The notes under the pieces were generated by a model, which had not been told where the DNA came from, did no database searches, and was given only the letters and a program-made list of their open reading frames with translations. Positions 25,011 to 47,561 of a DNA stretch of 64,000 bases are shown piece after piece. The stretch is from Dokdonella sp. GTDB taxonomy: Bacteria; Pseudomonadota; Gammaproteobacteria; Xanthomonadales; Rhodanobacteraceae. A program made the translations under genes and the position numbers. The stretch's first letter is position 1. The number at the start of each line of letters is the position of its first letter. Where the stretch lies: assembly GCA_016712865.1 (NCBI GenBank), contig JADJQH010000001.1, positions 248,001 through 312,000 on the forward strand, in the 5' to 3' direction.

Positions 25011-25011
25011 G

Positions 25012-26124
25012 TTATTCGCCTCCGCTCTCGCCAAGCCAGGCGGCCTTGAGCGCAATCACGCTGGTGATGGCGACTTCATCATCCGCCTCGAGAGGACCGC
25101 TGAAGGTGACGGTCTGACCGGCGCTGCTCACAACCGTCACCGCCTTGGCTGTGAAGCCGTCGCCGCTGCGCACGAACACATAGTCTTCCTTGCCCTGTCG
25201 CACCACCGCGCCTATCGGCACCGTCCAAGCAGCCGCAGTCACCGCGTTGGGCACCAGTGCTTGCACGAACTCCCCGGGGCGCAATTGATCGGCACCCTCG
25301 ATCACATCGGCACGCAGGGTCACCGTCTGGCCCGCGCTGACGGTGGAACCCACGCTGAGTGGCACCGCAACAACGGCACGCTCAGGCACGGTGATTTTCC
25401 GCGTCGTCGCCCCACTCGATGCCCGCGACGCGGGTACCTGTATATCGAGCCACAAGTGCCCGAGCGTCGCCATATGCAACAAGGGCTCGGCGCGATTAAT
25501 GCGCTCGCCGGGTTTGATCTGTATCGACAGCACCGTTGCAGTTGTCTGCGCGAGCAGGGTCAGCCCATCCTGCAAGCTGCCACCGCTCGCGATGCGGTTG
25601 ATGCTGTCAATGTCGAGGCCTGCCAGTCGCAAGGCGGCGCGTGTTTGTCGATCGCGGGCCCCACCACTGTTCGCCGCCGCTTCTGCTTCAAGCACGCGGC
25701 GCCTTGGAATGATGCCTTCGGCGAAGAGTTCGCGCTCGCGCTTCAGTGTCTGTTGAGCGAGCCGGCTGGCGCTCGCTGCCTCCATCAGTTGCAGTTGCAG
25801 CTCGCCAAACTCGGGGCTGGCCAATCGCAACAGCGGATCGCCCGCACGCACGGTCTGGTTCTCGCCGACCAGGATCCTGTCCACCATGCCGGCAACCGGC
25901 GCGCTGACTACCTGTTCGTTTTGTGGGGGCAACACCACCCGCGCCGGATAGGTCATGCCACCCGGTAGCGTGTTGCTGTCCAAACGCTGCACCGTGATGT
26001 CCAGTGACTTCATCTGGGCGGCCGACACTTTGAAGCTATCGGCGGCGTAGGCCACCGGCAGGGCGAGCAACAGTGCAGAGCAAAGTACTGTCTTGGAGAG
26101 GACAGTTCCAAAAAGGCGATTCAT
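25012..26124 (-). CDS. RND efflux periplasmic adaptor of system 2
   Basis: A 370-residue membrane fusion protein with signal peptide (TVLCSALLLALPVAYAAD), lipoyl halves (VVSAPVAGMVDRILVGENQTVRAG and LSIQIKPGERINRAEPLLHM), a coiled-coil hairpin between them and beta-barrel domains. It lacks the N-terminal metal-binding domain seen in the CusB of this window. The open frame upstream of 26124 is low in protein character, so the start is set at MNRLFGTVL. It is the first gene of the operon running to about 18.4 kb. Confidence 0.9.
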   Translation of the reverse strand: MNRLFGTVLSKTVLCSALLLALPVAYAADSFKVSAAQMKSLDITVQRLDSNTLPGGMTYPARVVLPPQNEQVVSAPVAGMVDRILVGENQTVRAGDPLLRLASPEFGELQLQLMEAASASRLAQQTLKRERELFAEGIIPRRRVLEAEAAANSGGARDRQTRAALRLAGLDIDSINRIASGGSLQDGLTLLAQTTATVLSIQIKPGERINRAEPLLHMATLGHLWLDIQVPASRASSGATTRKITVPERAVVAVPLSVGSTVSAGQTVTLRADVIEGADQLRPGEFVQALVPNAVTAAAWTVPIGAVVRQGKEDYVFVRSGDGFTAKAVTVVSSAGQTVTFSGPLEADDEVAITSVIALKAAWLGESGGE

Positions 26125-29178: not shown

Positions 29179-30701
29179 ACCGTTCACTCAAGCGTCCTGC
29201 CCTCTGGGTCAGTGCCATTCTGGTCATTCTGACGTTGCTCGAAGGGGCCAACTACTGGTTCGGGTTTCGACGGGCTGCCGACATGGATTCCGGCACGAGC
29301 GGCGAAAAGACCGTTCTGTATTGGTACGACCCGATGGTTCCCGACAAGCACTTCGAGAAATCCGGGAAGTCGCCCTTCATGGACATGCAACTCGTGCCCA
29401 AATACGCGCAAACCACTGCCGCCGCCAAGGCCGAACCGATGTACTGGTACGACCCGATGATCCCCGACAAGCATTTTGACAAGCCCGGCAAATCACCCTT
29501 CATGGACATGCAGTTGGTGCCCAAATATCCCGATGGAGCGGGTGACGATGGCGGGTCGATTCGGATAAGTCCCGCCACCTTGCAAAATCTTGGCGTGCGA
29601 ACCAGCCAGGTTGAATCGGGCACCTTATCGGCCGCGGCGCACGTTCCCGGCAGCGTTGCCTGGGACCAACGATCGGCCTTCGAGATCAACGCACGCGTCG
29701 ATGGTGTGGTCGATATCCTTGGCATTCGAGCGCCCTATGAAACCGTGCGCAAAGGCCAGGCGCTGGCCGAGCTGATTGCACCGGAATGGAGCGCGGCTGC
29801 GCAGGAATATCTCGAACTTGGGCGCGCCGAATCTGCCGATGCCCGTGCGTTGCGAAGCGCCGCACGCCATCGGCTGCTGGTACTGGGCATGGACGAGGGG
29901 CAGATCCGCCATTTGCGTGGAGGAAATCCTCGCGTGGTAGTGCGTGCGCCAGCCGATGGTGTCGTAAGCTCGTTACAGGTGCGCCAAGGTCAGCGGGTTC
30001 AGGCAGGCATGCCATTGATGACGATCCATGGGCTCGATACGGTCTGGGTCGAGGCGGCCATCCCGCAAGCCCAGGCGGCCGGTATCGTGCCGGGCACAGA
30101 GGTTATCGCTGAGGTTAGCGCGTTCCCTGGCGAATCGTTCCGGGGTTCGGTCGAGTCCTTGCTTCCCGATCTTGATGCGGGCACGCGAACCCAGATGGCG
30201 CGCATCGTCCTCGACAATCCCGGACACCGGCTCGCACCGGGCATGTTTGCGGACTTGCAGTTCGCAAGCGACACGCGTGATTCCCATCTCTTGATTCCTG
30301 ACGGCGCTTTGATCGCTACCGGCACCGATGCGCGCGTGATTGTGGTCGTGGACGATGGAACGTTCCGTCCCGTGCGTGTGATCGCAGGCCACTCCGCCGC
30401 CGGCAAGACGGAAATCCTCAAGGGACTGAACGTCGGTGATCGCGTGGTCGTCTCGGGACAGTTTCTGATCGACTCGGAGGCAAGCCTGTCCGGCGCGCTG
30501 GACCGCTTGTCCACACCCGACGGAGACATGGGAGGCAGCGGCAACGCCGACGACGGCGGCATGCCCGGCATGGACATGCCGGCACCACAACAACCGCCGG
30601 CGATGGACGCGGACATGCGCAATGACGCCGACGCCATGAAGGACATGGCTGCTGATCGGAACATGCCTGGGACGTCGCAATCACAGGAGCACCCACGATG
30701 A
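29175..30701 (+). CDS. cusB: CusB-like adaptor with a duplicated metal-binding domain
   Basis: A 508-residue periplasmic adaptor of the Cu/Ag export complex. After one membrane anchor ([20 protein letters not shown]) there are two copies of the heavy-metal-binding domain, at residues 49-77 and 90-118, each running from YWYDPM(V/I)PDKHF to [10 protein letters not shown] with a 41-residue period. Then come the lipoyl and barrel domains ([19 protein letters not shown]), and a Met/Asp/His tail ([23 protein letters not shown]). Most CusB proteins carry one such domain, so the duplication should raise the number of Cu(I) sites. Coupled to cusC and cusA by ATGA overlaps. Confidence 0.92.
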
Positions 30702-33700
30702 TTGCGCGCATCATCCACTGGTCGATCGGCAATCGTTTCCTCGTCTTGCTGGCTGCCGCCGCCCTGGCCGTCGCTGGCGTCCTTGCCATCGAACGTACGC
30801 CCCTGGATGCACTGCCGGATCTGTCGGACACCCAGGTGATCCTGCGCACCAGTTGGCCCGGACAAGCGCCGCAGATCGTCGAGGATCAGGTCACCTATCC
30901 GCTGGCGACCACCATGATGTCGGTACCGGGAGCGACCACGGTGCGCGCCTTCTCGTTCTTCGGCGATTCGTACGTCTACGTGTTGTTCGCCGATGGCACC
31001 GATCCCTACTGGGCGCGCTCACGCGTGCTCGAATATCTGAGCCAGGTCCGCGACAAGCTGCCCGAGGGCGTGAGCCCCACGCTCGGACCGGATGCCACGG
31101 GCGTCGGCTGGATCTACGAATATGCCTTGGTCGATCGCAGCGGCCAACATGATCTCGGTGAACTGCGTGGCTTGCAGGACTGGTTCCTGCGCTATCGGCT
31201 CAAGACCGTTCCTGACGTCGCCGAAGTCGCCAGCATCGGCGGCATGGTGCGGGCCTGGCAAGTCGTCGTCGATCCGCAGGCGCTCGCGGCGCGAGGACTG
31301 ACAGTTCAGCAGGTCAAGACCGCGATCCGCGACGCCAATGGAGCCAGCGGGGGTTCGGTGATCGAGCAAGGCGAGGCCGAACTGATGGTGCGCAGTGTGG
31401 GCTACCTGGCCTCACAAGTGGAATTTGAGAGCATCCCCCTGCAGACCGGAAGAGACGGAGTGCCGGTGTTGTTGCGCGATGTCGCCCAGATTCGGCGCGG
31501 ACCGACACTGCGGCGCGGGATTTCCGAGCTTGACGGTCAGGGCGAAGTCGCCGGCGGCGTCGTCATCTTGCGCTCGGGCAAGAACGCACTCACAGCGATC
31601 GATGCGGTCAAGGCGCGCCTGCAGGAGCTCAAAGCCAGTTTGCCTGAGGGCGTCGAGATCGTTCCGACCTACGACCGATCGGTCCTGATCCGCGCCGCGG
31701 TCGACAACCTGTCGCACAAGCTGATCGAGGAATTCCTGGTTGTGGCCTTGGTCTGCGCGCTGTTCCTCTGGCACCTGCGTTCATCGCTGGTCGCGGTGAT
31801 CACATTGCCGCTCGGCGTGCTGGCCGCGTTCATCGTCATGCAATGGCAAGGCGTGAGTGCCAACCTGATGTCTCTGGGCGGCATCGCGATCGCCATCGGC
31901 GCGATGGTCGATGCGGCCGTGGTGATGATCGAGAACACGCACAAGCACATCGAGGCCTGGCAGTTGGCCCATGAAGATCGCGATGAGCCCAGCGCATCGG
32001 AACGCTGGGGCCTTGTTGGTGCGGCGGTGGCTGAAGTGGGCCCAGCCCTCTTTGTCAGCCTGCTCGTGATCACGCTTTCGTTCCTGCCGGTGTTTGCATT
32101 GGGTGCGCAGGAGGGACGGCTGTTCAAGCCCTTGGCCTACACCAAGACCTACGCCATGGCTGCCGCCGCGGGGCTGTCGATCACCTTGATCCCGGTTTTG
32201 ATGGGTTATCTGGTGCGTGGCCGCATTCGGTCCGAGCACGCCAATCCGGTCAATCGTGCGTTGACCGCGGTGTATCGGCCTGCACTAGGCTGGGTCTTGA
32301 AAGCACCAAAAATGGTGCTGTTGGCCGCCGGGATCGTGCTGGTTTCGGCGGTGTTGCCATGGAGCCGCTTGGGCAGTGAATTCATGCCGCCGTTGAATGA
32401 AGGGACGCTCCTGTACATGCCCACCGCGCTGCCCAGTCTCTCTGCAGGCAAGGCTTCCCAGCTTCTGCAACTGACCGACCGGATGCTCAAGACCGTACCC
32501 GAAGTCGAGCATGTCTTCGGCAAGGCTGGGCGCGCCGATTCGGCCACCGATCCCGCACCCTTGACCATGTTCGAAACCACGATCACTTTCAAACCAAAGG
32601 CGCAGTGGCGTGCCGGGATGACGATCGAAAAGCTCAAAGGTGAGCTTGATGCCGCTGTGAGGGTGCCCGGTCTGACCAATCTGTTTGTCTACCCGATCCG
32701 CAACCGCATCGACATGCTCGCGACCGGCATCAAGAGTCCAATCGGCATCAAGGTACTGGGTCCGGATACCCGCCGACTGGAGCAATTGGCATCGCAGATC
32801 GAAGCGGTGGCCAAGGCGGTCCCCGGGGTGAGTTCGGTGATCTCGGATCGCGCTGCAGGGGGACGATACGTCGATATCACCGTGCGGCGAGACGCTGCGG
32901 CCCGATATGGCCTGACACAGGCCGCCGTGCAGTCCTTGCTGGCCATGACCGTAGGCGGGGCACCGATCGACCAGACGGTCGAGGGCCTTGAGCGCTACCC
33001 GATTGTGTTGCGTTATCCACGAATCCAACGCGATTCACTGTCTGCGCTTCGCGAGATGCCGATCGTCACCGCCAATGGCAGCCAGATCACCCTTGGGCAG
33101 GTAGCGGATATCGGTCTCAGCGGAGGTCCGCCGATGCTTAAGAGCGAAAACGGGCAGCTGGCGACGTATGTCTACGTCGATACGTCGAACTCCGATCTTG
33201 TCGCACAAGTCGAAGCGATCCGGCAGGCGGTGGCTGCAAAACTTGACCTGCCCGCTGGCTACACGTTGGCCTGGTCGGGCCAGTTCGAGTATCTGCAACA
33301 TGCCTTGGAGCGATTGCGCCTTGTGGTGCCGGCAACGCTTGGCATCGTTTTCCTGCTGATTTATCTGGTGTTCCGCCGGGTCGACGATGCATTGATCATC
33401 ATGCTCAGCCTCCCGCTTGCGCTGGTGGGCGGGCTTTGGCTGATCTGGCTGCTCGGGCATTCGATCTCGGTGGCGACCCTGATCGGATTTATCGCGCTTG
33501 CCGGCGTGGCAGCGGAATTCGGCATCATCATGCTGCTGTACTTGTGGCACGCGTGGGAAAGACAACTCGCGATAAACCCCGCTGCGGGCGATGCAGAACT
33601 CGATATCGCAATTCGCGAAGGTGCTCTCCAGCGTGTGCGGCCCAAAGCCATGACGATCGCTGTCATCCTGGCAGGCCTGCTTCCAATCATGATCGGGACC

Positions 33701-33862
33701 GGAGCAGGCTCGGAAGTCATGCAGCGCATTGCCGCACCCATGGTCGGTGGCATGATCACGGCTCCCCTGTTGTCGATGCTCGTTATTCCAGCGGCGTTCC
33801 GGCTATCGCGCCGCCGCGACCTTGCGCGACGTGCCCAACACAATTTGAAAGCCATGACATGA
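30698..33862 (+). CDS. cusA: CusA Cu(I)/Ag(I) RND efflux pump (pump 3)
   Basis: A 1054-residue HME-RND pump with the Cu/Ag-type TM4 motif [22 protein letters not shown]-terminal [13 protein letters not shown] and Met residues along the periplasmic path (for example [15 protein letters not shown] and EMPIV) also fit CusA. It forms a tripartite complex with the CusC and CusB proteins encoded just upstream and takes Cu(I)/Ag(I) from the periplasm or cytoplasm to the outside. No CusF or CusRS genes are found nearby. Confidence 0.95.
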
Positions 33863-34192: not shown

Positions 34193-34792
34193 TCATGGAA
34201 AGTGACCTCGCGCAAGATTGCCCAGCCAAATTTCGAATTCCGCCACAGTGTCGAACGGAAAATCCGCGATCTGTGTCGCCCGAAATGTGGCCAGTTGCGC
34301 GGTATTTCGTTCGAGGCCGTTGTAGCCGAACTCCCTCGTCCCGGTGGCGGCTAGCGCGGACATCCACGCGATCACGTGGCCAACATCTGCTTCGAGGTGA
34401 GCCGCGGTGAGCTTCTGTCCTGTGAGCTGCCCATGCAGGATCTTCTTTCGGTACCGATGGATGCGACTGATCTCCGGGGATAACTGCGCATGTGCGACAC
34501 CGATAAGGTCGGCCTCAGTACATCGTGCGAGGCGCACGATGCCTGATAGGAACGTGCTGGGGTAGAGCTGGCGGTTGGCGAGGATCGCTCTGTTGATCGC
34601 GCTCTGCGCTAGCATGTCCAGACCGAAATGTTGCTGGACGAGAAAGCTAAAAAGTCGACGGGTCTGCTTTTCGTACTTCACCCAGGTAAGGATCAGCGCG
34701 TCGACGCGGCGGGTCGACGCCTGTAACTCCCAGATAGCTTGTACGGTTGCGAATTCGCCTTTTAAGGGATCAGGAATGGTGAGTGTGCCCAT
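34193..34792 (-). CDS. HEPN-like alpha-helical protein, possible RNase effector
   Basis: A 199-residue, mostly helical cytoplasmic protein. Near the middle it has RYRKKILHG (residues 113-121), which fits the Rx4-6H catalytic signature of HEPN RNases (Arg115, His120). HEPN proteins are common effectors of toxin-antitoxin and phage-defence systems. It is the last gene of the minus-strand block, 196 bp after the E1-like gene, so it may use read-through or its own promoter. No other domain is seen. An RNase role is inference from one motif and from context. Confidence 0.65.
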   Translation of the reverse strand: MGTLTIPDPLKGEFATVQAIWELQASTRRVDALILTWVKYEKQTRRLFSFLVQQHFGLDMLAQSAINRAILANRQLYPSTFLSGIVRLARCTEADLIGVAHAQLSPEISRIHRYRKKILHGQLTGQKLTAAHLEADVGHVIAWMSALAATGTREFGYNGLERNTAQLATFRATQIADFPFDTVAEFEIWLGNLARGHFP

Positions 34793-34988
34793 TGGGTCTC
34801 CTCATGTAGTTCAAGCGTTGCCAGGCACGTGCTTGAAAGATTGCTGGGGGTCACTATTGCATCGTCAACGAAATACGACCGTGGCGGCAGCGCTTGCGAT
34901 TTCAAGTGATGCCCAAGCAGGAGGGGTAGCAACCTGGACGCCTCCAATTGGAAATTTCGTGCAAGGCGATCACTTGTTCCAATCTACT

Positions 34989-36353
34989 TCATTTGTTGAC
35001 ATCAATGAACGCACATCGCGTGCTTGGAGATGTCGTCGGCGCACCCAGCCGATGTGACAGAGATTGCATCTGGAGGTCGAGGCTGACGTGTGTGCCACCC
35101 CCGTGCAGGGGTCGTACGAGCTCCGCAATGACCAAGCTCGCGGCGACTGCGCCCACGAACGGCGTGGCCACCGCCTTGGTGGCGAGCATCGTCACTCCGC
35201 ACAAATCGCCGCTGTCGTGCGCGAGCTGTTGGTAGGCCTCATTGAGCGTGGCGACCCCTTGGCTTGCCGCCTGTGCAGGCCACAGCTCGCTGGCCGGCCG
35301 CGGTCCGGGCAAGGTATGCATCCGCAGGCTGCGGAAGTCGCGGTAACCGCTGCCCAAACCGGCCTCGATCACCAGCGCGAATGCGGCCGTGTCGAGGTCG
35401 CGCCTCGCGGCGATGTTGTCTACGCCAAACAAGGCGACCGTCGGTTCACCTTGCTGCAGGCGGTGGTGTGCGCCGAACCGGCGTTCAACGAGCTCGATGT
35501 CAAAGCCGATCGCCTCCAGGCGGCGCGCCACCACGCGGGTCTTGCGCACCTTGAGATCGTCGGCACCCACCAGAAGGCAGGTACTCAGGTTCGACGTGGT
35601 AACCCGGTCCACGTCTTGGAGCACGAGGCGGGGGCGTCGATCCTGCGGATACGGCAGCATTCCTAGGACCCATGCGTAGGCTTGGCCTAGATGTCCTACC
35701 CCGACCAGCCACAGGTCGTTGGGCAAGTACGCAAGTCGAGGACCTCGCCATTCGGGCGACTGCCAGTCGGCGACCGCCAACGGATTCCACAAGGACAGGC
35801 CGATTCGGCGGTGGCCTGCCTCGAGTGAGTCTCCGCGTACGTGCGAGAACGCTTCGCTCACCGCTAATGCGCCGGCGCAAACGCCCGCCAGGGGATTGTC
35901 ATCGCTCGTGGTCAGATGGCCGCCGCTGCCGACGGGGGCGATTTGCGCGCACCAGCCATCCCACGTCGGTCGAATGGCGAACGTGGCGCTGGACGGAACC
36001 GCACCGTCCCCGATGAGCAGCGACGGAACGTGCGGGGTCGGGGCGTCGACCACCGTGCCGCCCAGTTGCTGCACAACCTGCGCCGTGGGCAGGCCGGCGA
36101 ACAGGGGCAACCGAAGGAGGGGGGCGAGGTCGCCATCCACCTCCACGCGGCCAAGGAATGCTCGGGACGCGGTGCTAAGCGCCGTTACGAAGCACGCTTG
36201 GCCGGCAAGGGTGTCCGCCCAGCCCGTGCCCAAGTGGATTCGCACGCGATACTGCTGGAAGAGGGCAAGCGCCGCTTCGGGCGTAGTGGCTTCGCCGGCA
36301 TCGAGCGCCAGCTTGGCCAGGCGGTGCATCGAGTCGGAATCGAACTGGTTCAT
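34989..36353 (-). CDS. E1-like ubiquitin-activating enzyme (ThiF fold)
   Basis: A 454-residue protein. Residues 1-200 form an unassigned N-terminal domain. Residues 208-420 are a ThiF/E1 Rossmann domain: nucleotide loop GVGHLG (217-222), DVDRVTTSNLST (247-258) with the Asp and Asn that bind ATP, basic Lys268/Lys271, and FGVDN (309-313). Cys385 in GDLCGVTML is the best candidate for the thioester cysteine. It would adenylate the C-terminal Gly of the Ubl encoded upstream and hand it to the E2. The start overlaps the JAB stop as ATGA. The composition matches bacterial E1-E2-JAB-Ubl operons such as Bil. Confidence 0.85.
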   Translation of the reverse strand: MNQFDSDSMHRLAKLALDAGEATTPEAALALFQQYRVRIHLGTGWADTLAGQACFVTALSTASRAFLGRVEVDGDLAPLLRLPLFAGLPTAQVVQQLGGTVVDAPTPHVPSLLIGDGAVPSSATFAIRPTWDGWCAQIAPVGSGGHLTTSDDNPLAGVCAGALAVSEAFSHVRGDSLEAGHRRIGLSLWNPLAVADWQSPEWRGPRLAYLPNDLWLVGVGHLGQAYAWVLGMLPYPQDRRPRLVLQDVDRVTTSNLSTCLLVGADDLKVRKTRVVARRLEAIGFDIELVERRFGAHHRLQQGEPTVALFGVDNIAARRDLDTAAFALVIEAGLGSGYRDFRSLRMHTLPGPRPASELWPAQAASQGVATLNEAYQQLAHDSGDLCGVTMLATKAVATPFVGAVAASLVIAELVRPLHGGGTHVSLDLQMQSLSHRLGAPTTSPSTRCAFIDVNK

Positions 36354-36841
36354 GCAGTGTCCTCTGCCGCAGCGAACGTAATGAGCGTGGTGACAGGCGG
36401 GCCGCGAAAGCGCTGCCAGCGATGAGCACCCTGGTACAGATACAGGCCGACATCTTCGAGGTGCACGGGCCCTTGGGCGAAGTGGGGAACGATGAGTGCA
36501 AGGTGACCGGCGATTGCGAGCATCGGGTTCTCGCTGTCGCTGCGGCTCTGTCCGGCCCCGTAACGATGGGTGTGCACGTCGGCCACCACATCGAGGTCGT
36601 GGTCGGCGCAGTAGGCCCACAGCCGACCGAAACTGGCGGCGGACAAGTGCACGAAGTCCGCCTGCAGGGCGTCGTGCTGCAGCTGTTCGTACGGAAGGAA
36701 GTGGGTCGCGACACGCCGATCGCGCTGCACCTTGCCCAGCAGAAAGCCGCCGCTCTCGCGCACCCCCGCACCCTGCTGGCGAAGATGCGCGAGGGTCGCT
36801 TGCCACAACGCAGGGGAGAGCTCAAGCAGCGGCGCTGACAT
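36350..36841 (-). CDS. JAB/JAMM metallopeptidase (deubiquitinase-like)
   Basis: A 163-residue Mov34/MPN-type protein. Glu29 in RESGGFLLG and the zinc site HTHRYGAGQSRSD (His90, His92, Ser99, Asp102) make up a JAMM motif that is one residue shorter than the usual HxHx7Sx2D. Such enzymes trim Ubl precursors or remove Ubl from targets. The ATG at 36841 was chosen because it gives the normal MPN length; the frame continues upstream as a shadow of the E2 gene. It overlaps the E2 gene by 20 bp and the E1 gene by 4 bp. Confidence 0.87.
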   Translation of the reverse strand: MSAPLLELSPALWQATLAHLRQQGAGVRESGGFLLGKVQRDRRVATHFLPYEQLQHDALQADFVHLSAASFGRLWAYCADHDLDVVADVHTHRYGAGQSRSDSENPMLAIAGHLALIVPHFAQGPVHLEDVGLYLYQGAHRWQRFRGPPVTTLITFAAAEDTA

Positions 36842-37292
36842 GGTCGTGGCCTTGCAAGAGGTCGTGGACGACTTCCAGGTAGTGCGAGATCCCCTTCGCC
36901 GGTTTCCAGATGAGCTGGGGATACTGAGACAGCCATGCATCGTGACCGACCAGGCTCTCCCGGTCGCAGGGCAGGTACAGGGCATGTCCGTTCTTCCACT
37001 CAGGCCTGAAGGCCAGGCGCATGCACTCGCCACCGGTGGGCCAGCGTGCAGCGGCCAGGTGACAATCGCCTTCGAGGTCCCAGAAGCCGCCGGTCGGCGC
37101 AATAGCCGGGAAGCCTTTGCAGTTGAGCCGGAGCACGAACTCCTGCCCGTCGGGTGCGAAGACGCCCACGAAGACAAACGGCCAGTCGACCCGGTGAAAT
37201 CGCCAGCGCCCCCGATCCTGGCCCGACAGGAAGCGCGCCGACGCGAGGTCGGCGCGCAAGGACAGCTCATCCGGCGATACCTGCGCGGCCAT
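36822..37292 (-). CDS. E2-like ubiquitin-conjugating protein
   Basis: A 156-residue single-domain protein with an E2-type order: N-terminal helix (LSLRADLASARFLS), beta strands (FVFVGVFAPDGQEFVLRL), the Pro-rich loop FPAIAPTGGFWD, then LYLPCDRESL, in which Cys109 is the likely active-site cysteine, and C-terminal helices (GISHYLEVVHDLL). It would accept the Ubl from the E1 next door and move it to a target lysine. It begins 1 bp into the Ubl stop (TGATG). Similarity to a defined E2 subfamily needs a profile search. Confidence 0.78.
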   Translation of the reverse strand: MAAQVSPDELSLRADLASARFLSGQDRGRWRFHRVDWPFVFVGVFAPDGQEFVLRLNCKGFPAIAPTGGFWDLEGDCHLAAARWPTGGECMRLAFRPEWKNGHALYLPCDRESLVGHDAWLSQYPQLIWKPAKGISHYLEVVHDLLQGHDHVSAAA

Positions 37293-37798
37293 CAGCCGTT
37301 GATCCGGTGTGCAGGCACCAGGTCGAACACGATGGAGCAGTTGGGGTGCTGCACCAGGGCACCAACGTGGGTGTCCATGTCCGGCTGCTCGTTGGAGCCG
37401 GCGATCTGCAAGACGTGCTCAGCGATGTCGCCGGCCTTCATGCCGAACTGGCGCCCAGCCCACTGACGAATGCGACCGATCGTCGTCGCAGGGCGGAAGC
37501 GGTGTTCCTCCGTGCGCCCCCCAAAACGAACCCCGACCGTCACGTGCTTGCAGCGATGCAAGTGGACGCGCACGCCGTGGCCCTGGTTCAGGTCCTTGAC
37601 ACGTCGAGGCGACGGGGCGTCCTCGTCGTCCGCGTCATCGTCCTCGACGGAAAGCGAAAGCTCTAAGGCGTCGGTGCCAGGCGGCAGCAGGGCAAGGGCG
37701 GCGCGCTTGAGATCGGCGATGGTGGCGTGGCCGTCGATCTCGACCAGCTTGATGTCGGAAAAGTGCTCCGACTGCACATAGACACGGGTACTGGACAT
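37292..37798 (-). CDS. Two-domain ubiquitin-like modifier (multi-ubiquitin type)
   Basis: A 168-residue protein of two beta-grasp domains in tandem. Domain 1 is about residues 1-82 (TRVYVQSEHFSDIKLVEIDG; ADLKRAALALLPPGTDALEL; acidic loop DDDADDED). Domain 2 is 83-168 (KHVTVGVRFGGRTEEHRF; TTIGRIRQWAGRQFGMKAGD; NCSIVFDLVPA). It ends in Gly (HRING), so the native C-terminus could be activated without trimming. Two fused Ubl domains recall ISG15 and the BilA protein of Bil. The ATG is preceded by AAGGAG at 9 bases. It is the first gene of Ubl-E2-JAB-E1. Confidence 0.85.
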   Translation of the reverse strand: MSSTRVYVQSEHFSDIKLVEIDGHATIADLKRAALALLPPGTDALELSLSVEDDDADDEDAPSPRRVKDLNQGHGVRVHLHRCKHVTVGVRFGGRTEEHRFRPATTIGRIRQWAGRQFGMKAGDIAEHVLQIAGSNEQPDMDTHVGALVQHPNCSIVFDLVPAHRING

Positions 37799-37804
37799 GC
37801 GGTG

Positions 37805-37855
37805 TTACTCCTTTGGGTTGGAGCCGCGCGTTTTTGCGTGGCTCTTAAGGAGTAA
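37805..37855 (-). promoter_or_regulatory. Nested stem-loop covering the Ubl ribosome binding site
   Basis: On the minus strand TTACTCCTT (from 37855-37847) can pair perfectly with AAGGAGTAA (37813-37805), and the second arm contains the AAGGAG of the Ubl gene. Within it a second hairpin forms from GAGCC/GGCTC arms (37821-37844). A transcript coming through from the helicase gene would hide the ribosome binding site. A transcript starting from the promoter motif at 37852-37882 might lack the first arm. Confidence 0.5.
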
Positions 37856-37882
37856 GTCGCAGTGAATCCCAAAAATCGGAAA
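37852..37882 (-). promoter_or_regulatory. Bipartite promoter-like motif upstream of the Ubl operon
   Basis: Reading the minus strand: TTTCCGATTT, 11 bases, TGCGACTTAC. The same two 10-base boxes with the same 11-base gap occur at 42607-42637. Seen as hexamers TTCCGA and GACTTA, the spacer is 17 bp, as in a sigma70-family promoter. Likely recognised by the sigma-like protein of this locus. Confidence 0.7.
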
Positions 37883-37900: not shown

Positions 37901-40900
37901 CTACGCAGGGCAGTACAGGAAGTGCCGGCATCCCGGGCACACCCACGAACTGGGCGCCGCGCTGAACTGACCGACCGATAGTGCCTGCGCGAAGTGCGTC
38001 AAGTTGAAGTCCGGAACCAGATGCCCATACGCCACGACGGGCTCAGTCTGGCGTGTGCTCAGAACATGCAAGCTGCCTTGGAAGCGCAGCGGCGGGTACG
38101 CCTCATTGAGATGTTTGAGCACCCATCGGATGGCCTTGTGCTGCTTGGCCAGTGGGCTGGACGGCTGCGCGCGCACAAAGTGCAAGGTAACCGCATTGCC
38201 TTGGCGCGTGATGCGGTGTGAAATCACACGAATGGGTAGCCCGTCGCACACCACGTCAACCGGGGGCGCCACCGCCACGCGGTCGGCGCCGGACCAGGCG
38301 CGTCCGGCCTGCAAGAGCTGGTCGGCGTACGCCCGAAGGTGCGGCCTGGTCACCTCATAGTCCTCGGGAAGCCTGCTCAGTTCGAGTTTCACGTCGTTCA
38401 CCGGCGTCGAAACCTCGCCTCCGTGCGGCACGAAAAGCTCGCGCAAGACCGCGGACTCGATGCGTACGGCCGGATGCAATCCCGCCGCTGGCGTCAGCTG
38501 CCTCACTTCGTCGTAGTAGTAGCGACGAGGACACGTGCGGTACGTCACGAACTCCTTCAAGCCCACGGGCAAGGAGGGCCCTTGTGCGGTCCGGTGCGTG
38601 GTGCTGGTGGTGTCGGCCTGGACCCGCGTGCCGACGACACGATCAAGCAAGTGAGAGGCGCGCTGCACCGTAGGCGTGCACGCCGCCTTGTAGTAGCTCT
38701 TCTCCTCGTACAAGGTCAGATGCGAGCGCGCACGCGACAGGGCGACATAGAGCTTGTTTGACGCCTCGGACTTGGCTTCGTCCACGCCGCCGGCCGTCTG
38801 CGTAAACGCAGCGGGAAGCCAGGCTGCGTCGTCGGACCGCTCGAAGTGGCGGGCGTCGACGTCCATCAGGTGAACGGCTTCAAACTCCAGTCCTTTGCTC
38901 TGGTGGATCGTCATCACGGCCACCGCCTCCAGCCGCTCGGCTTCCGGCGGCGGAATGCGCAGATCGCGGTCCTCCGCCAGACGCAAGCGCCGGCGCAGCC
39001 GGGTCAGGAATGTGCCCACGGTCTGGTAGGCGCGGCCACCGTCAGGAACGCGCAAGTAGTAGATGATCTGCCAAAGCGCGAGTCGTCGCGTCACCGCTTG
39101 CAAGTCGTCGCCCGCTTCGTATGCCCCGAGCCATCCGGTGCGATCGAACAGCACCGTGCACGCGACGTCCCAAGGCGAGTCGCGTGCGCTCAATCCAGCA
39201 AAGGTTTCGCGCCACCGCTGCAACGCAACTACGCCCGCGACGGACAGGCCGATCGGCGGAGCGGTGAGCCAAGATAAGGGCTCGGGGCGGGTACGTCGAA
39301 GATGGGCAAGCAGAAGGTCCAGGTCTTCGGCGGGCAGGGCCAATCCCGGCAATTGCGCGATCCGCACGAGCGCACTTCCCGAGCGATCGACAAACAATTG
39401 CAGCAGCGCCAGCAGGTCTTTCACCTCCGGGCGTTGAAAGATGTCGCCCAGATGCAACACCGGAATGCCGGCGGCCACCAAGGCCGCCGCCGCGGCATCG
39501 CAGGTGTCGTGCCTGCTGGCCAGGATCACCTGGTCGCGATAGGCGACGCCTTGGGCCTGCAGCCCGCGCACGCGAGACCAGCTCGCCATGGGCGATGCTC
39601 GGGTCATCGCAGCTCACAAGTGTCGGACGCAGCCCGCCTTGGCCCCTGATCGGCGCGACGCCGTCCAGCGGAAGCACGCCCTGCAGCGGATTGTCGTCGC
39701 GGCCAGTGTGCTCCACGAGCCGAACGATCTCCTCGAAGCTGCGCCAGTTGCCGTTGAGTCGAAACACGCGGTGCTTGGGAAAATCATCCTCGAAGCGAAC
39801 GATGTTGCGCATTGATGCGCCGCGAAAGCGGTAGATCGCCTGGCGCGGATCGCCCACCACCCACAGGCTGTCGGCGTTGGCCGCGAGCGCCTTCACCAGC
39901 TCGGCGCTGGCGCGGTTCACGTCCTGGTATTCATCGACCAACATGTGTCGGAATCGTCCGACACTGGGCAAGAATTCGCCCATCCCCGCGCCCAGCGCTC
40001 GGGCGGGCAGCATGATGAGGTCACCAAAGTCGACGAGCCCGCCATGGGCCCGCAACAGTGACTCGTAGTGGCGGTAAAGCGTGGCTACGTCGCGCTCTCT
40101 GGCGAGCCGGTCCGCGTCACTGCGAGCGGCGCTGTCTTCCACCATCGTGCCGAACGCCTCGGCATCCAGCAGTTCGTCCTTGGCGCGCTGGGTCGTCTTG
40201 ACCACCTGATCCAGCCAGGGCAGCGGATCGCCCAATGGGTTGAACGACCGCAGGGGCAGGCCGTAGATATGCGGTTCGAGGAGGGCGATCTGCGCCATCT
40301 TGTCCGCCACGCCGAACTCGGGGCGCAGCCCGAATCGTTCATGGTTCTTGCGGAGGAATTCCAGCCCGAAGGCGTGAAAGGTCCCCACCCACATTTCATG
40401 CGCGCCAGGCACCCCTGCGGCCTCGAGGCGGTCGACCAACTCTCGCGCGGCGCGGTTGGAAAACGTCAGGACCAGCAGTTCTGCTGGCATGGTGCCGTTA
40501 GCCAGCAGGTGCTCAATGCGCATGAGCAAGGTGGCGGTTTTGCCGGTACCCGGTCCGGCGACGACAAGGGAGGTCCGCGCATCCGAGCGCGCGGCATCGC
40601 GTTGCTCGATCGTCGGGGACAGCGCTGGCTCCGGCGATTCCTCCGAGATGGCGTCGTGCGGCAGTAGGACAGCATCCAACAGCTGCTGGCGAACCAGTTC
40701 GAGTGGCAGTTCGAGCTCCGCGGCAATTTGGCCCGCCGTCCGACCGGCATCGAACAGGGCGCGCGCCAGAGCGTGGGGCAACAGAAGGTCCCGCGCGAAG
40801 AGGTTGGCTTGCAGCTCGGCCCGCTCACGAGCGCCGTACGCTTCGACGCGCTTGGCGCCGAGGGTGTCGTCCTCGGCCGGATTCAGGTGGCTGACGATGA

Positions 40901-41213
40901 CTTTCCGGCAGCCCTCCTGCTCTTCAGGGTGCAGCACCCAGTGCCCGAACTCGTGCGCCACCAGAAAGGCCCGCTCTGGTACGTCCACGTCATCGCGGAC
41001 AATGATTTGGCGAAAGGCGCGGACCAGCACTGCGTCGGCTCCGCTCAACGCTGAATCGTCCGGCCGCGCCAGCGTGATATCAAAATCCTCGGCGTCCACC
41101 GCGGCAATGCACGCGATCAGGTCGCTGGAGCGAATGCCGGTTGGCGTGGCTTCGCCGCAGTGCCGCTCGCGCAACTGCTGCGCCGCTAGCCGCGCTTGCC
41201 GAAACGGTGTCAA
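37901..41213 (-). CDS. ImmA/IrrE-type peptidase fused to UvrD helicase and Fe-S nuclease; frameshifted
   Basis: A composite protein of about 1,100 residues. Residues 80-150 are a zinc peptidase of the ImmA/IrrE type (HEFGH at 87-91, then ERAELQANLFARDLL, with the third ligand in ExxAN). From 200 on comes an SF1 UvrD/Rep helicase: GPGTGKT at 220-226, HAFGLEFLRKN, VDEYQDVN, VVGDPRQAIYRFRGA; motifs V/VI (MTIHQSKGLEFEAVHL, NKLYVALSRARSHL) lie in the second frame. The C-terminus has Cys in YRTCPRRYYYDE and CPGCRHFLYC, the four-Cys pattern of Fe-S RecB-like nucleases. The frame breaks near 39566-39576 in a GCGCACGCG stretch (one base lacking). Coupled to the upstream regulator by ATGA. Confidence 0.82.
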
Positions 41214-41830
41214 GACGGGCGGCCCCGATCCTGCATCGCGCGCAGCCGGGCCTTTTCTGCCTCGTCAACGGCGAGCGCACTGATCGCGTCCTCCCACGAC
41301 TCGCCGGCGGTCATGGTCGGCTTGTCCGCAGCTTTGTAGCTGCGATGCAACGCCACCTGGGGCCCCAGTTCTTCCGAAAGCAATGTCACTGTGACATTCA
41401 AGAACTGCGCGAGTCGGTCCAGCACCGCCCGAGGCGGATCGATGATCATCCGCGTCAGAATTTTGCTTAGAAGCACCGTCGAGCCCACACCAGTCGCCTG
41501 TGCGGCCGACCTGAGGCGTTGCCCGGCCAGCGCCCCAATCGCCTTGCGAACCGCGTCAGCGCCCTCCAGGACGGGCGGGGCATACAGTTGATTGAGCACG
41601 CGGCTCTGCAGGCGCATGACGGAAGCGTCGGAAACCTCCAGTTCGGACTCGGCCGGTTCGGGCAGGGCGTCTTGCGCCATCCAGAGCGCGGAGAACTCCA
41701 AGATCTCCTCGCGATACTCCGCGTGCGCTTGACAGGCTTGGACGATCATCTCGGGCGTCGGCGCGTTGTCTTGCTGAAACAACGCGTCCAACACGTCCTC
41801 GAGCGAGGGATTACGGTTGGGCGAAGTCAT
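41210..41830 (-). CDS. HTH (XRE-like) regulatory protein between sigma and helicase genes
   Basis: A 206-residue soluble protein. The N-terminal half is helical and acidic (SLEDVLDALFQQDNAPTPEMI; YREEILEFSALWMAQDALP). The C-terminal half has a segment that reads like a Cro/CI HTH (GQRLRSAAQATGVGSTVLLSKILTRM in two parts, then LDRLAQFLNVTVTLLSEELG). Its position, overlapping the sigma-like gene before it and the ImmA-type peptidase gene after it, suggests a repressor or anti-sigma that the peptidase could cleave, as in ImmR/ImmA pairs. That role is inference. Confidence 0.65.
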   Translation of the reverse strand: MTSPNRNPSLEDVLDALFQQDNAPTPEMIVQACQAHAEYREEILEFSALWMAQDALPEPAESELEVSDASVMRLQSRVLNQLYAPPVLEGADAVRKAIGALAGQRLRSAAQATGVGSTVLLSKILTRMIIDPPRAVLDRLAQFLNVTVTLLSEELGPQVALHRSYKAADKPTMTAGESWEDAISALAVDEAEKARLRAMQDRGRPS

Positions 41831-42558
41831 ATGTTGAACTCCTTGTTAATCTTGTCTTTGATGCTTCTTTCGTAGTTGTTGATGGTGCGCGGGTTGACGC
41901 CGAGTGCTGCGGCGATGTCCTTGATCTTCATCTGTTGGCGCCACAACATCACGAAGACCGAATACTCCTTGCGCGTGAGCAGGGTCTGCAGGAGAGCATG
42001 GAACTGCTCGAACTCCCGCGAGTGGCCAAGGGCCACATCCGGCGTCCATTCGTCCTGCAAAGCGGTGTCCCCGTCGCCGCCGTCCTCGTCGCTGCCTTCG
42101 TATTCGCGCTCCGCTTGGTGCCATTCTTCGAGGCTTTCCATCCGCGAGCGACATTGCGCCAGGATCGAGCGCAAGAACGAGATCGACTGGTTCTTGAAAA
42201 AGACGCCGAACCGGCGCGCGGCGAACTGCGCGTTCTTGTCCTTGAGCAGGCGTTCCCATACGTACGCGGACAACTCGTGGGCGGCCTCGTCGATGTGGGA
42301 AAAATGCTGGGGGACCAAGCTGTTCTTGAGTGCGAACGACCGGGAGCGCCGCAATATCCGCCGCGATAGCGCGCTGCTGAACAGCCCAACGCGGGTCGTG
42401 CTCCCCGCGGCCCGAGCGACCTGGAACTGTCGTACGAGCTGCTCCTCGCGGATGAAAAGCGGATCGTCCCAGTCTGCGCAACTCAGGCGCTCGACCAGTT
42501 CCCGGTCCGCCAAGTTGTCCAGATTTTCTGTTTCAGATGTGTCCATCGCGTCGTCCAT
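41827..42558 (-). CDS. Sigma-70-family-like factor of the Ubl locus
   Basis: A protein of about 243 residues. The middle (DEAAHELSAYVWERLLKDKN, FFKNQSISFLRSILAQCRSR) resembles sigma region 2; an acidic linker (EGSDEDGGDGDTA) follows; the end is a clear region 4 HTH (LLTRKEYSVFVMLWRQQMKIKDIAAALGV, then NPRTINNYERSIKDKI). The start at MDDAMDTSE is preferred since the promoter-like motif at 42607-42637 ends 48 bp upstream, which rules out a start at 42627. Overlaps the HTH gene by 4 bp. Probably regulates its own operon and the Ubl operon. Confidence 0.72.
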   Translation of the reverse strand: MDDAMDTSETENLDNLADRELVERLSCADWDDPLFIREEQLVRQFQVARAAGSTTRVGLFSSALSRRILRRSRSFALKNSLVPQHFSHIDEAAHELSAYVWERLLKDKNAQFAARRFGVFFKNQSISFLRSILAQCRSRMESLEEWHQAEREYEGSDEDGGDGDTALQDEWTPDVALGHSREFEQFHALLQTLLTRKEYSVFVMLWRQQMKIKDIAAALGVNPRTINNYERSIKDKINKEFNI

Positions 42559-42606: not shown

Positions 42607-42637
42607 GTAAGTCGCAGGCCGCGACACAAATCGGAAA
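42607..42637 (-). promoter_or_regulatory. Bipartite promoter-like motif upstream of the sigma-like gene
   Basis: The second copy of TTTCCGATTT-N11-TGCGACTTAC, all 20 box bases identical to the copy at 37852-37882 while the 11-base gap differs. It is about 48 bp before the sigma-like start and suggests autoregulation. Confidence 0.7.
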
Positions 42638-43059: not shown

Positions 43060-45258
43060 TCATGGGCTGCCACCCACAGGAACCTGCACCTCGACAGGCA
43101 AGGTCTGGAGGACCGGGAATTCCGTCTGGATCCGCGTCATGAGATCGACGACCCCTGGGGCCTGCAGCGTCACGATCAGCGCGTAGGGCATAGGCACGGC
43201 GTCTTCCGTGCGGACCGCTTCACTCTCGTCGCGCACCTGGTAGTTGATGTGGAAGTAGGGCGATTCCAGCTCGTCGGCATTGACCGTGCAAGAGTTGTTC
43301 AACACGGTGTCCCAGCGCATGGCGTCGCGACGCAGTTCTTCTTCGGACTTGTACATGCCGGTGCCGAACAGGGGCAGGCTGTTGCCCGGCGCCTTGTAGC
43401 AGCGCACCCACAGTCCCGCCCGCGTGTAATTGATTGCGTGGGCCGAATCGACCGGCGCGCGGTAACAGAACGTCGCGCCAATGCGCACCTTGGTGCCGGG
43501 AGGCAGACCTTTTGGCACGGGGATCAACGCCTTTTGCGGATGACCAGGACGCGTGATGCCCTGGTATACCACGCGCACGACATCGAGCGGTGTATACAAA
43601 ATCCCCTCCGGATCGAGAGGAATTCGCCCCCAGCCCACATCCGCTCGCTTGTGACTGCGCCGGTACTCGGCCGCGTTGATCAGCAGGGCCTGCAGCGTGA
43701 TCGGGGCAAAGCGCGACTGACTGAGAACGTCGATTCCCACCGCAGTGCGCAGGGCCAAGGGGCTCGCAAAGCTGGTGCCACCCACGGCAACGACGCCACC
43801 GGCCAACGGGCTGTACACCGGCAAGGGCTCCCCGTTGGATCCTCCGAAGGCAACCACATCAGGTTTCACAAAGCCCGGACTGCGCCCGGGTCCGGTGGCG
43901 CTGTACGGGGCGCGATTCCATTTCTTTCGGCGGGTGTCAGCTGCGCCGATCGCAAACACGTTCACGGCGTCTCCCGGGGGCTGGATGCGGCCGAGCTCTC
44001 CGCCCAGCGCACCGTTGTTACCGATGGCCGCCGTACACAACGTGCTCCCATCAGCGAGTTCGGTGTCCAGTCGCGAAGTCCACTCGTGGATGTCGTCATC
44101 AAAGAAGGTAGCCACAGGGCCGAGGCTGATGTTGGCGAAGCGGTAGGGGCGACCCGCGGTGCGGGCACTGCGCAAGGCAGTGACGATGCGATCGAGCACG
44201 TCGAGGGCCTGCTCCGGGCTGTCCGTCGTGGGCAGCACGCGATGGTGCTCGACCGCCCACGGTGGCGTGGGCAATATCCCTTGCTTTGGGTCGACCGGAC
44301 CAAACAGCAGCGCGGAGGTGACGTTGACTCCATGGGTCAGGTCGCCGACGGCGGCCGGTGGCAAACCTGAAGCGGCCAGTTCGACCACGTGACTACCAAA
44401 CGCTTGCGCGGTACCGCCGTCGAACACCGCCACGCGCGGCCCGTGCGGGGTCGGCATCGGCGCCGGCAAGCTCAACTTGGGATACGAACGGCCCAAGGCT
44501 GCCGTTAGATCGAGTTCCTCGCGCAGGCGCGGCATCGAGCGCACCAGCCGGATGCGTTCGAAACGAGCGAGCTCCGGCACCTGCGCTGCGGGCAAGTGCA
44601 CGGCCACGAAGGCCAGCCCGGGGACGAAGCGGAAGCCCCTCAGACTGATTTCACCGCCGAGCTGCAGCACCAGCGTCTGGAACGCGGCGAGGATGTCGGC
44701 GTCGTTTTCTCCTGCGTGCAAGGTGACGTGCACGAAATTCGGCCATGGAGTTTCGGTGTCCAGCCGCAGCTTGGCGTTGCTTGCATAGGCGTGAATCGAC
44801 TCGATGTGGGTGAACTCTTCCTGGCGGCCTTTACCGATCGCCGGATCCTGGAGGTAGCGATCCATCACCTCAAACTCCTCTGGCGTTCCTGCCACCAGAA
44901 TTTCGGCGGTGTCCTGCGCCCCCGGCTTGCCACCTTGGCTGATCCGTGGCGTGACGCGGGTCGTTCGCGAACCCAGGATGGTCAAACCCGCGTCGCGGAG
45001 GATGTGGGCGGGGAAGTGGGTTTTCGCAAGAAAGGTGGGATGAAGGGTTAGTTGCGCCGTAATCTCACCACGGGGGGAAAATCTACGGGACACTGCTCGC
45101 GCCGCGCCGGCGACGGCGGCCAACTGAGGATGCAATGTCTCGCGCGCATCTGCGATTGAGTAGGGGTGCCACTTCGGTCCGCCCCCCTGGGGCCACGACA
45201 AGGAACCGATGAGTTCTTGCCCGTTGGCTATCAGCACGTTCCGAGGGGTTGCGGCCAT
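43060..45258 (-). CDS. Subtilisin-like (S8) serine protease
   Basis: A 732-residue protein without a signal peptide, so it is probably cytoplasmic. About 260 N-terminal residues of unassigned fold precede an S8 domain with the catalytic triad Asp (RVAVFDGGTAQ), His (DLTHGVNVTSALL) and Ser (GGTSFASPLAL), plus the oxyanion Asn region (AAIGNNGALGG). About 170 residues of beta-rich sequence follow. A well-spaced AGGAG marks the start. It lies 10 bp after the AAA+ gene; such AAA/S8 pairs recur in accessory regions and the ATPase probably controls the protease. Confidence 0.9.
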   Translation of the reverse strand: MAATPRNVLIANGQELIGSLSWPQGGGPKWHPYSIADARETLHPQLAAVAGAARAVSRRFSPRGEITAQLTLHPTFLAKTHFPAHILRDAGLTILGSRTTRVTPRISQGGKPGAQDTAEILVAGTPEEFEVMDRYLQDPAIGKGRQEEFTHIESIHAYASNAKLRLDTETPWPNFVHVTLHAGENDADILAAFQTLVLQLGGEISLRGFRFVPGLAFVAVHLPAAQVPELARFERIRLVRSMPRLREELDLTAALGRSYPKLSLPAPMPTPHGPRVAVFDGGTAQAFGSHVVELAASGLPPAAVGDLTHGVNVTSALLFGPVDPKQGILPTPPWAVEHHRVLPTTDSPEQALDVLDRIVTALRSARTAGRPYRFANISLGPVATFFDDDIHEWTSRLDTELADGSTLCTAAIGNNGALGGELGRIQPPGDAVNVFAIGAADTRRKKWNRAPYSATGPGRSPGFVKPDVVAFGGSNGEPLPVYSPLAGGVVAVGGTSFASPLALRTAVGIDVLSQSRFAPITLQALLINAAEYRRSHKRADVGWGRIPLDPEGILYTPLDVVRVVYQGITRPGHPQKALIPVPKGLPPGTKVRIGATFCYRAPVDSAHAINYTRAGLWVRCYKAPGNSLPLFGTGMYKSEEELRRDAMRWDTVLNNSCTVNADELESPYFHINYQVRDESEAVRTEDAVPMPYALIVTLQAPGVVDLMTRIQTEFPVLQTLPVEVQVPVGGSP

Positions 45259-45268
45259 GCGAATTCTC

Positions 45269-46360
45269 CTACTTGTGCAGCCAGCGTGAGACGGTGGCGG
45301 CGCTCACGCCAACATGCTTAGCGATTGCGCGTGTAGACAAGCCATCGGCATGTAGGCGTTTGACCAGCAGCCATCGCTCACTTTCGGCTGGATCGGTCGC
45401 ACTAGGCAGTGCCAATCGAATCAATACGTCGTCCAGCTCGCCGCCGTTGATGGCGATTTCGCGCCGCGCCCGGGTCACCAGCCGACTCGCGTCTGAGAGC
45501 GGCTTTCCGGCGAATGCCGGCGCGATCTGCCGGGAGACTGCGTGGCCGGCCCCCAAGTTGGAAAGCAAAGCCTCAACCTGACGGGTCGTGCTGTCGGGGA
45601 AGCGCAGCCAGATATCAAAACGGCGAAAGACGGCGCGATCTAGCAGTTCCTCGTGATTGGTGGCCGCCACAAGCAACGATGTCCCTGGCCATTCGTCGAT
45701 GGCTTGCAGCAGCACGTTGACGACGCGCTTGAGCTCGCCAACGTCTTGGCCGTCGTCCCGTCGCTTGGCCAAGGCGTCGAATTCATCTAACAACAAGACG
45801 CACGGCTGAACCTTGGCATGAACCAGCACGCGGGTGAGGTTGGTGCCGGTCTTGCCAAGCAGACTGTTGACGGCGGCCGCAAGGTTGAGCGTGATCAAGG
45901 GGAAGTTCAGCTGTTCGGCAAGATAGGTCGCGGCGAGGGTTTTGCCGACGCCAGGTGGTCCGGATAGCAAGACGGTGCGAGAGGGCGACAGGCCCGCTTC
46001 ACGCAGACGATCGGCATGCCGCCATTCATTCACCAGGCCGCCCAGGATTTCGTCGACCTTTGGAGGCCACACGGGCTCGTGCTCAAGAAAGGCGGGAAAC
46101 TGTATTGAGGTCAAGGCGAGGTTGCTGTCGGAGTCGACGGGGCTGACCAATGCTTGCTGAGCCGCGCCGTCGCGTGCGAGCGTCAGGCGAGAACTGTTTG
46201 CCTCGGTTAGCGCTCTAGCTAGCAAAGGTGTCAAGGCAGACTTCTCTCGCCGCAAGCGGGCAATCAATCGGCTCAAGCGCAACTGGAACGCAGCAGCGTT
46301 GCCGGCGCAACCCTCCCGGACAAGCGCCAACCATTCGGCCTCGGAAGATGGTATCGACAT
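45269..46360 (-). CDS. AAA+ ATPase with C-terminal HTH, partner of the S8 protease
   Basis: A 363-residue ATPase. After a helical N-terminus come Walker A (LLSGPPGVGKTLAATYLAE), Walker B (CVLLLDEFDALAKRRDD), sensor 1 (LLVAATNHEELLDRAVFRRFD, with the Arg finger), a lid domain, and a final HTH (LSTRAIAKHVGVSAATVSRWLHK). It belongs to the classical FtsH/katanin-like AAA group by pattern. The start at 46360 is preferred because AAGG lies 5 bases before it; an ATG 18 bp upstream is also open. The HTH could bind the direct repeat just upstream of the gene. Confidence 0.87.
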   Translation of the reverse strand: MSIPSSEAEWLALVREGCAGNAAAFQLRLSRLIARLRREKSALTPLLARALTEANSSRLTLARDGAAQQALVSPVDSDSNLALTSIQFPAFLEHEPVWPPKVDEILGGLVNEWRHADRLREAGLSPSRTVLLSGPPGVGKTLAATYLAEQLNFPLITLNLAAAVNSLLGKTGTNLTRVLVHAKVQPCVLLLDEFDALAKRRDDGQDVGELKRVVNVLLQAIDEWPGTSLLVAATNHEELLDRAVFRRFDIWLRFPDSTTRQVEALLSNLGAGHAVSRQIAPAFAGKPLSDASRLVTRARREIAINGGELDDVLIRLALPSATDPAESERWLLVKRLHADGLSTRAIAKHVGVSAATVSRWLHK

Positions 46361-46380
46361 GGGAGCCTTCTGTTTCATGT

Positions 46381-46396
46381 GTTGCACAGTGTTGCA
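46381..46396. repeat. Short direct repeat upstream of the AAA+ gene
   Basis: GTTGCA occurs twice at a 10-bp interval, that is one helical turn, 20 to 36 bp before the AAA+ start. It is a possible operator, perhaps for the ATPase's own C-terminal HTH. Small size keeps confidence low. Confidence 0.3.
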
Positions 46397-46441
46397 TGTC
46401 ATTATGAAACAGCGCAAGAGCCCCTCGAGGTGCCTACCGGG

Positions 46442-47524: not shown

Positions 47525-47561
47525 AATATGTAGTCTATAATATGACATAGGCGGCGTACCA

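Follow-up and report, generated by a model that had tools for sequence, protein, structure and literature searches.

When bacterial ubiquitin-like immunity is turned on is a question to which little is known of the answer, and a 64,000-nucleotide stretch of Dokdonella sp. raises it in a concrete form (contig JADJQH010000001.1 of assembly GCA_016712865.1, positions 248,001 to 312,000; hereafter the window, with all coordinates counted from its first letter). The window carries the four bil genes of the known Bil antiviral system and, upstream of them, three further genes that we name SIG, MID and HEL, together with two copies of one promoter. We propose that these form a seven-gene, two-promoter immune operon in which the upstream genes would control bil. 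The Bil core is already known and the new part is the upstream module, whose novelty is not proven: a full-text literature search gave no title describing SIG-MID-HEL, with incomplete coverage of the key Bil literature, so that an earlier mention is possible.

The upstream SIG-MID-HEL module

SIG, MID and HEL lie on the minus strand between bilA and an IetAS-like gene pair, with 4-bp overlaps between SIG and MID and between MID and HEL. SIG (41827-42558, 243 residues) fits the sigma-70 family (ECF-like), with both the sigma2 and sigma4 regions present. Its start was set at a downstream ATG because the longer reading frame, to 42627, overruns the promoter described below. As a single sequence SIG matched NCBIfam sigma70-ECF at 3.3e-8 with 33.3 bits, under the cut-off of 42.9, and the family profile matched AlgU in the Protein Data Bank at 1.7e-10. 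The fold matches shown for its AlphaFold2 model were sigma factors (predicted local distance difference test, pLDDT, 88.5). MID (41210-41830, 206 residues, AlphaFold2 pLDDT 87.1) combines an N-terminal helical domain with an XRE-type helix-turn-helix at residues 91-155 that resembles DdrO, CapH and SinR, not significantly. Foldseek returned nothing at E 0.001 or better for the models of SIG and MID. We propose that MID is an anti-sigma factor or repressor and the substrate of a peptidase.

That peptidase would be part of HEL (37901-41213), which joins an IrrE/M78 zinc peptidase to a UvrD helicase and an Fe-S nuclease-like C-terminus (Pfam M78, UvrD-helicase and UvrD_C). The peptidase motif HExxH is kept in 43 of 44 aligned sequences and the third ligand Glu in all 44, as are Walker A, the DE of motif II and the four Cys; the PD-(D/E)XK motif is degenerate. 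Among known defence systems in PADLOC, GajB and a DRT-associated helicase are similar to the helicase part. In the window, a deletion of 2 bases relative to locus L011 divides HEL into two open reading frames, 39042-41213 and 37901-39607; L011 is a 99.97%-identical sister contig from Lysobacterales bacterium 63-13 where HEL is intact. The deletion may be a real mutation, in which case the strain of the window may have lost a working sensing arm, or an assembly error.

The constancy of the module was assessed by scanning a collection of species genomes with a BilD alignment. The best 80 of 163 relatives, eight plasmid loci and the window gave 89 loci, a sample biased toward close relatives, and the 75 of them with 5.8 kb or more ahead of the BilC reading frame were counted with SIG, MID and HEL profiles that were built from eight loci and iterated once. 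SIG and MID were each found in 73 of these 75 loci and HEL in 70; the complete set, in its order, was present in 70. Copies with an interruption were counted as present; these are HEL of the window, HEL of L044, which is broken into two pieces, and SIG of L008, of which a fragment lies next to an IS256 transposase. HEL was missing from L007, L066 and L077, which kept SIG and MID, and from L049 and L064, which had none of the three. Thirteen of the 14 excluded loci lay close to a contig end; among the excluded loci HEL preceded BilA as far as the DNA reaches in L022, L033, L051, L067, L084 and L085, and L013, L034, L048 and L081 were too short to judge. L020 had the exact promoter and no HEL within 2.5 kb before BilA, L036 had other genes before BilB, and L040 had an oppositely oriented SIG at the contig edge with neither MID nor HEL. 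L029, which has 10 kb upstream, lacked the module as well as BilA, BilB and BilC and is therefore a BilD relative alone. The loci are not all independent, since the window and L011, like L003 and L026, are near-copies. The tree of HEL spans six phyla (Pseudomonadota, Chloroflexota, Acidobacteriota, Planctomycetota, Nitrospirota and Thermodesulfobacteriota), and in 75 loci with both genes the gap between HEL and BilA measures 86-218 bp, with a median of 108.

Paired promoters before SIG and bilA

A bipartite promoter with the pattern TTCCGATT-N14-CGACTTA stands before SIG (42608-42636), and a second exact copy stands before bilA (37853-37881), both on the minus strand; the end of the region described in an earlier note on this DNA, 37882, is the edge of the latter. 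Both copies were found in the window against none in 100 shuffles. The whole genome of the strain (3.75 Mb) contains only these two exact copies, and the genomes of 12 relatives contain 18, each coinciding with a bil-locus copy; the backwards control gave 0 in both searches. Six of the 12 relatives have one exact copy, and their other promoter is off by a few bases. Because these loci served to define the pattern, its presence in them is expected, and its absence elsewhere is the test.

Distant loci have an altered promoter, for example TTTCCGGGT...CGATCA or TTTTCCTTTT...CTCGGTTTA, and the two copies of a locus tend to change together. We compared the SIG and bilA regions of the 69 loci with readable promoter regions, which form 38 clusters at 70% HEL identity. 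The best 30-base match between the two regions reached at least 21, the 99th percentile of dinucleotide shuffles, in 38 of the 69 loci and exceeded every dinucleotide shuffle in nine; in 12 loci it was at most 18, about the level of the shuffled mean (17.9). In 34 of the 38 clusters a locus's own promoter pair scored above the mean for cross-locus pairs (Wilcoxon p=3.5e-7), and in only 13 of the 38 did it fall in the top 5%. The block TTCCG preceded both SIG and bilA in 61 of the 69 loci, against 3.0 in mononucleotide shuffles. As for the loci lacking HEL, the paired motif was kept in L066 and L077 (0 and 1 of 100 shuffles as good) and was weak in L007 (11 of 100). The pair of the plasmid locus L142 had a best score of 18.

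Sites of this kind, non-palindromic, made of two blocks and co-varying in pairs, would be expected of a sigma factor and its promoters, which suggests that SIG reads both. The sequence evidence is thus in favour of SIG being autoregulated at a cognate promoter of the -35/-10 type, and its role as a dedicated sigma factor is well supported at this level; we hold it with good confidence. Directly past the bilA promoter lies an inverted repeat, GAGCC...GGCTC (37821-37844, minus strand), with similar repeats in beta/gamma relatives. Its RNA fold has -14.6 kcal/mol and a z of -3.4 in the window, with z of -1.9 and -1.3 in two relatives, and it is possibly an operator or a 5' leader hairpin.

The Bil core, the proposed circuit and its alternatives

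The four genes that follow the second promoter encode, with very high confidence, BilA-B-C-D of the known Bil system, with the same proteins, order and catalytic residues, and this core is not new. BilA (37292-37798; PADLOC 9.1e-56) is a two-domain ubiquitin-like modifier of 168 residues ending in Gly168, BilB (36822-37292; 1.2e-59) is an E2-like protein (Pfam DUF7665) with Cys109, BilC (36350-36841, starting at an ATG within a longer reading frame; 2.1e-58) is a JAMM deconjugase and BilD (34989-36353; 9.5e-173) is an E1-like ThiF enzyme with Cys385. All four PADLOC models were aligned across almost their entire length. The genes are all on the minus strand and adjacent ones overlap. The earlier note had described, without giving a strand, four tightly overlapping genes for a two-domain ubiquitin-like protein ending in Gly, an E2-like protein with Cys109, a JAMM peptidase with Glu29, His90, His92 and Asp102, and an E1-like ThiF protein with GVGHLG and Cys385; it had assigned the set to a known pathway matching Bil and placed any novelty in wider partners and regulation. 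These statements were borne out, the last by the upstream module and the paired promoters.

Counting all aligned rows, the window included, Cys109 of BilB is present in 85 of 87 and His117 in 87 of 87; the exceptions for the catalytic Cys are a Leu in L008, whose SIG is also broken by the IS256 transposase gene, and a Ser in L034. Each of the four JAMM residues of BilC is kept in 88/88 rows, and Cys385, G218, G220, H221 and G223 of BilD in 89/89. Gly168 of BilA is found in 84 of 85 rows, with one gap. A tail of 2, 4 or 6 residues follows the conserved Gly in 30 rows, L004, L006 and L009 among them, but the chain ends at the Gly in 55 of the 85, so BilC cannot in general have a BilA tail to trim before activation. 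The BilA profile matched along tandem ubiquitin, with 0.0017 for a diubiquitin and, as the sum of eight stretches, 3.5e-17 for a polyubiquitin construct; none of its 32 matches among solved structures was named BilA. The BilC family profile matched the solved BilC 8tyx at 1.4e-15. Neither the BilB nor the BilD profile matched a solved structure, and BilD as a single sequence matched only ThiF, at 0.003. BilD was absent from 50,697 phage records at 1e-5, and in a class-wide draw of 369 genomes it occurred in the window's own genome only, too rare for a rate.

In the circuit that we propose, BilD would activate BilA, BilB would conjugate it to targets and BilC would remove it; in the Bil literature the conjugation targets are phage structural proteins. 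SIG would read the promoters of SIG and bilA, giving positive feedback, and MID would keep SIG and/or its promoters off. With its helicase and Fe-S nuclease-like part HEL would meet abnormal DNA, such as the single strands, ends or stalled forks of phage replication, and this contact would switch on the fused peptidase. Cleavage of MID would then free SIG for transcription of the SIG operon and bil. Gene identity, fixed order, active-site motifs and paired, co-varying promoters appear in the sequence itself; that MID is inhibitor and substrate, that DNA is the signal and that conjugation defends this host we infer. The circuit as a whole, with SIG, MID and HEL controlling bil, we advance with moderate confidence.

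The route from HEL through MID to SIG seems the most likely one and has three precedents. In the available parts of the respective sources, PprI/IrrE is activated by single-stranded DNA and cleaves DdrO (PMC10904395), CapP cleaves CapH on single-stranded DNA (PMC13373217), and in the Calp system of type III CRISPR (CalpL-CalpT-CalpS) a sensor protease cleaves an anti-sigma factor and releases a sigma factor (PMC12751052). The first two likewise have a helix-turn-helix protein beside an IrrE-type zinc peptidase, before an immune operon, and CapP shares with HEL the HExxH peptidase of the IrrE family (Pfam M78). CapH and CapP are a stand-alone two-gene controller, whereas in the window one protein joins the peptidase to a helicase and an Fe-S nuclease-like part, and there is a sigma factor as well. 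Calp has the same logic built from unrelated parts, its protease being a Lon-SAVED protein activated by cA4, according to the accessible text of PMC12751052. A further DNA-damage-responsive pair, CapK and CapS, stands upstream of Bub and of five Bil operons; as described in the available part of PMC13373217, it consists of a kinase and a STAS-domain repressor, with no sigma factor, peptidase or helicase. The paper contains neither 'IrrE' nor 'metallopeptidase' and has 'UvrD' three times; in the available part, UvrD is the host repair protein. PADLOC models Bil with four genes and the available portion of PMC11354881 describes BilABCD as a four-gene operon, to which this branch adds three near-constant genes and a second promoter.

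At more distant Bil loci the same place holds other regulators. Sixteen of 37 plasmid records were examined in total, and among eight further plasmid loci, mostly with a more distant BilD, SIG-MID-HEL was found only in L142. A helix-turn-helix gene adjoins an ImmA/IrrE peptidase gene in L139, which we take to have been among the Bil operons assayed in the original defence screen, and likewise in L140 and L143, where the two genes are divergent from bil. An XRE protein in the divergent direction, with an IrrE-like part (3e-7), was found in L141, a divergent helix-turn-helix gene in L144 and nothing recognised beside Bil in L145 and L146. L049 and L064, in which SIG, MID and HEL are all missing, have divergent reading frames resembling a fusion of helix-turn-helix and IrrE (weak phmmer matches, 4e-4 and 2e-5). 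In six other Bil loci, then, the two parts stand next to bilA, as a pair (L139, L140, L143) or fusion-like (L049, L064, L141), and this recurrence in several architectures is our strongest reason for thinking that MID and HEL act as CapH and CapP do. Separately, a gene for a PD-(D/E)XK nuclease, with a UvrD helicase gene behind it, lies just downstream of the Bil operon of L143 (10484-16431) and just downstream of a multiubiquitin operon in L092 (11947-15264), and L097 has a PD-(D/E)XK nuclease gene behind a transposase.

These loci also bear on what MID does. It could act as a CapH/DdrO-like repressor, bound to the DNA of the promoters, rather than as an anti-sigma factor, with HEL still cleaving it and SIG acting afterwards. 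MID has an XRE-type helix-turn-helix, repressors are numerous among its nearest folds, an inverted repeat lies past the bilA promoter, and the other Bil loci use a helix-turn-helix with IrrE where no SIG was found. However, the extra N-terminal helical domain is as expected of an anti-sigma factor, as is the company MID keeps with SIG (both in 73 of the 75 loci, neither in the other two), and by eye no such inverted repeat is present at the SIG promoter. We consider such a repressor rather unlikely.

A second alternative concerns HEL, which might be an antiviral effector, or a recruiter of targets for conjugation, that unwinds or attacks phage DNA, or cuts phage proteins, alongside Bil and leaves regulation to SIG and MID alone. 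The three loci that keep SIG and MID without HEL would fit this, as would the likeness of its helicase part to GajB and the DRT-associated helicase. Its PD-(D/E)XK motif is degenerate, however, a regulator-like pair or fusion of helix-turn-helix and IrrE occupies the same place in other Bil loci, and HEL is grouped with SIG and MID and separated from bilA by a promoter, all of which makes such a role for HEL quite improbable.

The module also occurs before a different ubiquitin-like pathway. HEL matched 135 plasmids in a tblastn search, and seven of these without a BilD match were examined. Six have SIG-MID-HEL before an operon of the multiubiquitin type (multiubiquitin is annotated in five; L094 was recognised by Pfam matches to its genes for E1 and DUF6527). 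In L091 the module precedes a short BilA remnant and in L098, found through MID, an IS66 gene. To avoid the bias of this sampling we sought multiubiquitin in 398 Pseudomonadota genomes and found it in 12, one of them on a 3.4-kb contig; SIG-MID-HEL was present in order in four of the other 11 (L126-L128 and L136), and E1 was not found in L128 and L136 with the query used. These multiubiquitin - DUF6791/ThiF - DUF6527 operons, some of which thus share the upstream module with Bil, differ from it in having their own modifier and enzyme set and in that no common promoter motif was found: none of 10 multiubiquitin loci showed a promoter shared by SIG and the modifier, the best (L095) being equalled by 8 of 100 mononucleotide shuffles. 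They resemble polyUbl group 6e of Iyer 2006, and we take them for putative members of the Bub group; the available part of the polyUbl operon paper (PMC1779556) mentions no helicase, UvrD or sigma. In the HEL tree, made by a quick method and with one long branch, the Bil and multiubiquitin groups separate with one change.

The occurrence before multiubiquitin operons and, in L098, an IS66 gene could suggest a separate system that neighbours Bil by chance in defence islands, but the fixed order, the short HEL-BilA gap, the presence of the module in 70 of 75 loci and in six phyla and the SIG-type promoter directly before bilA make this very improbable. Returning to the circuit as proposed, SIG-MID-HEL might represent a further family of DNA-damage controllers, common to two ubiquitin-like pathways, in which a sensor made of IrrE, helicase and inactivated nuclease destroys a helix-turn-helix anti-sigma factor and a private sigma factor drives ubiquitin-like conjugation; we offer this tentatively, giving it slightly less than an even chance. 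If true, the protease-helicase fusion would be an unusual route from DNA damage to a transcription signal. The circuit is concrete and testable, with DNA as input, a protease, an inhibitor, a sigma factor and two promoters, and its parts are common to most Bil loci of this branch, which suggests that four-gene Bil constructs omit the natural control.

The HEPN-like gene and flanking DNA

The earlier note had also proposed a HEPN gene as a partner of the operon. The letters of its motif, R115-x4-H120, are present in the reading frame at 34193-34792 (minus strand), and no family of Pfam, NCBIfam or PADLOC identified it as HEPN, a fold that is therefore only putative. The partnership itself did not stand up in a survey of co-occurrence. 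The only homologue among the reading frames of L003-L098 (phmmer, E up to 1) is in the sister contig L011, none was found in 72,556 plasmids (tblastn, 1e-3), and among 274 genomes of the class it occurs in the window's own genome only. The gene lies 196 bp past BilD, whereas the bil genes overlap, and no exact promoter copy precedes it. We therefore rejected it as a member of the system on co-occurrence and judge it a lineage-specific neighbour.

On the other side, the Bil operon is adjoined by the IetAS-like pair (43060-46417, minus strand), a subtilisin-like S8 peptidase and an AAA ATPase whose NCBIfam matches are below cut-off, beside which a tyrosine integrase lies at 46442-47572. No exact SIG promoter stands before the pair, and it was rejected as a part of the system. 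The window contained no tRNAs and no RNA families at gathering threshold. The description of the surroundings as a metal island, from the same earlier note, is fair for the flanks, where three RND-type efflux genes were recognised by eye (768-3896, 21927-25055 and 30698-33862). Together with a Tn3-family transposase at 52573-55533 and an IS21 IstB gene at 12731-13537, the defence genes look to be sitting in a mobile region that is seemingly rich in metal resistance.

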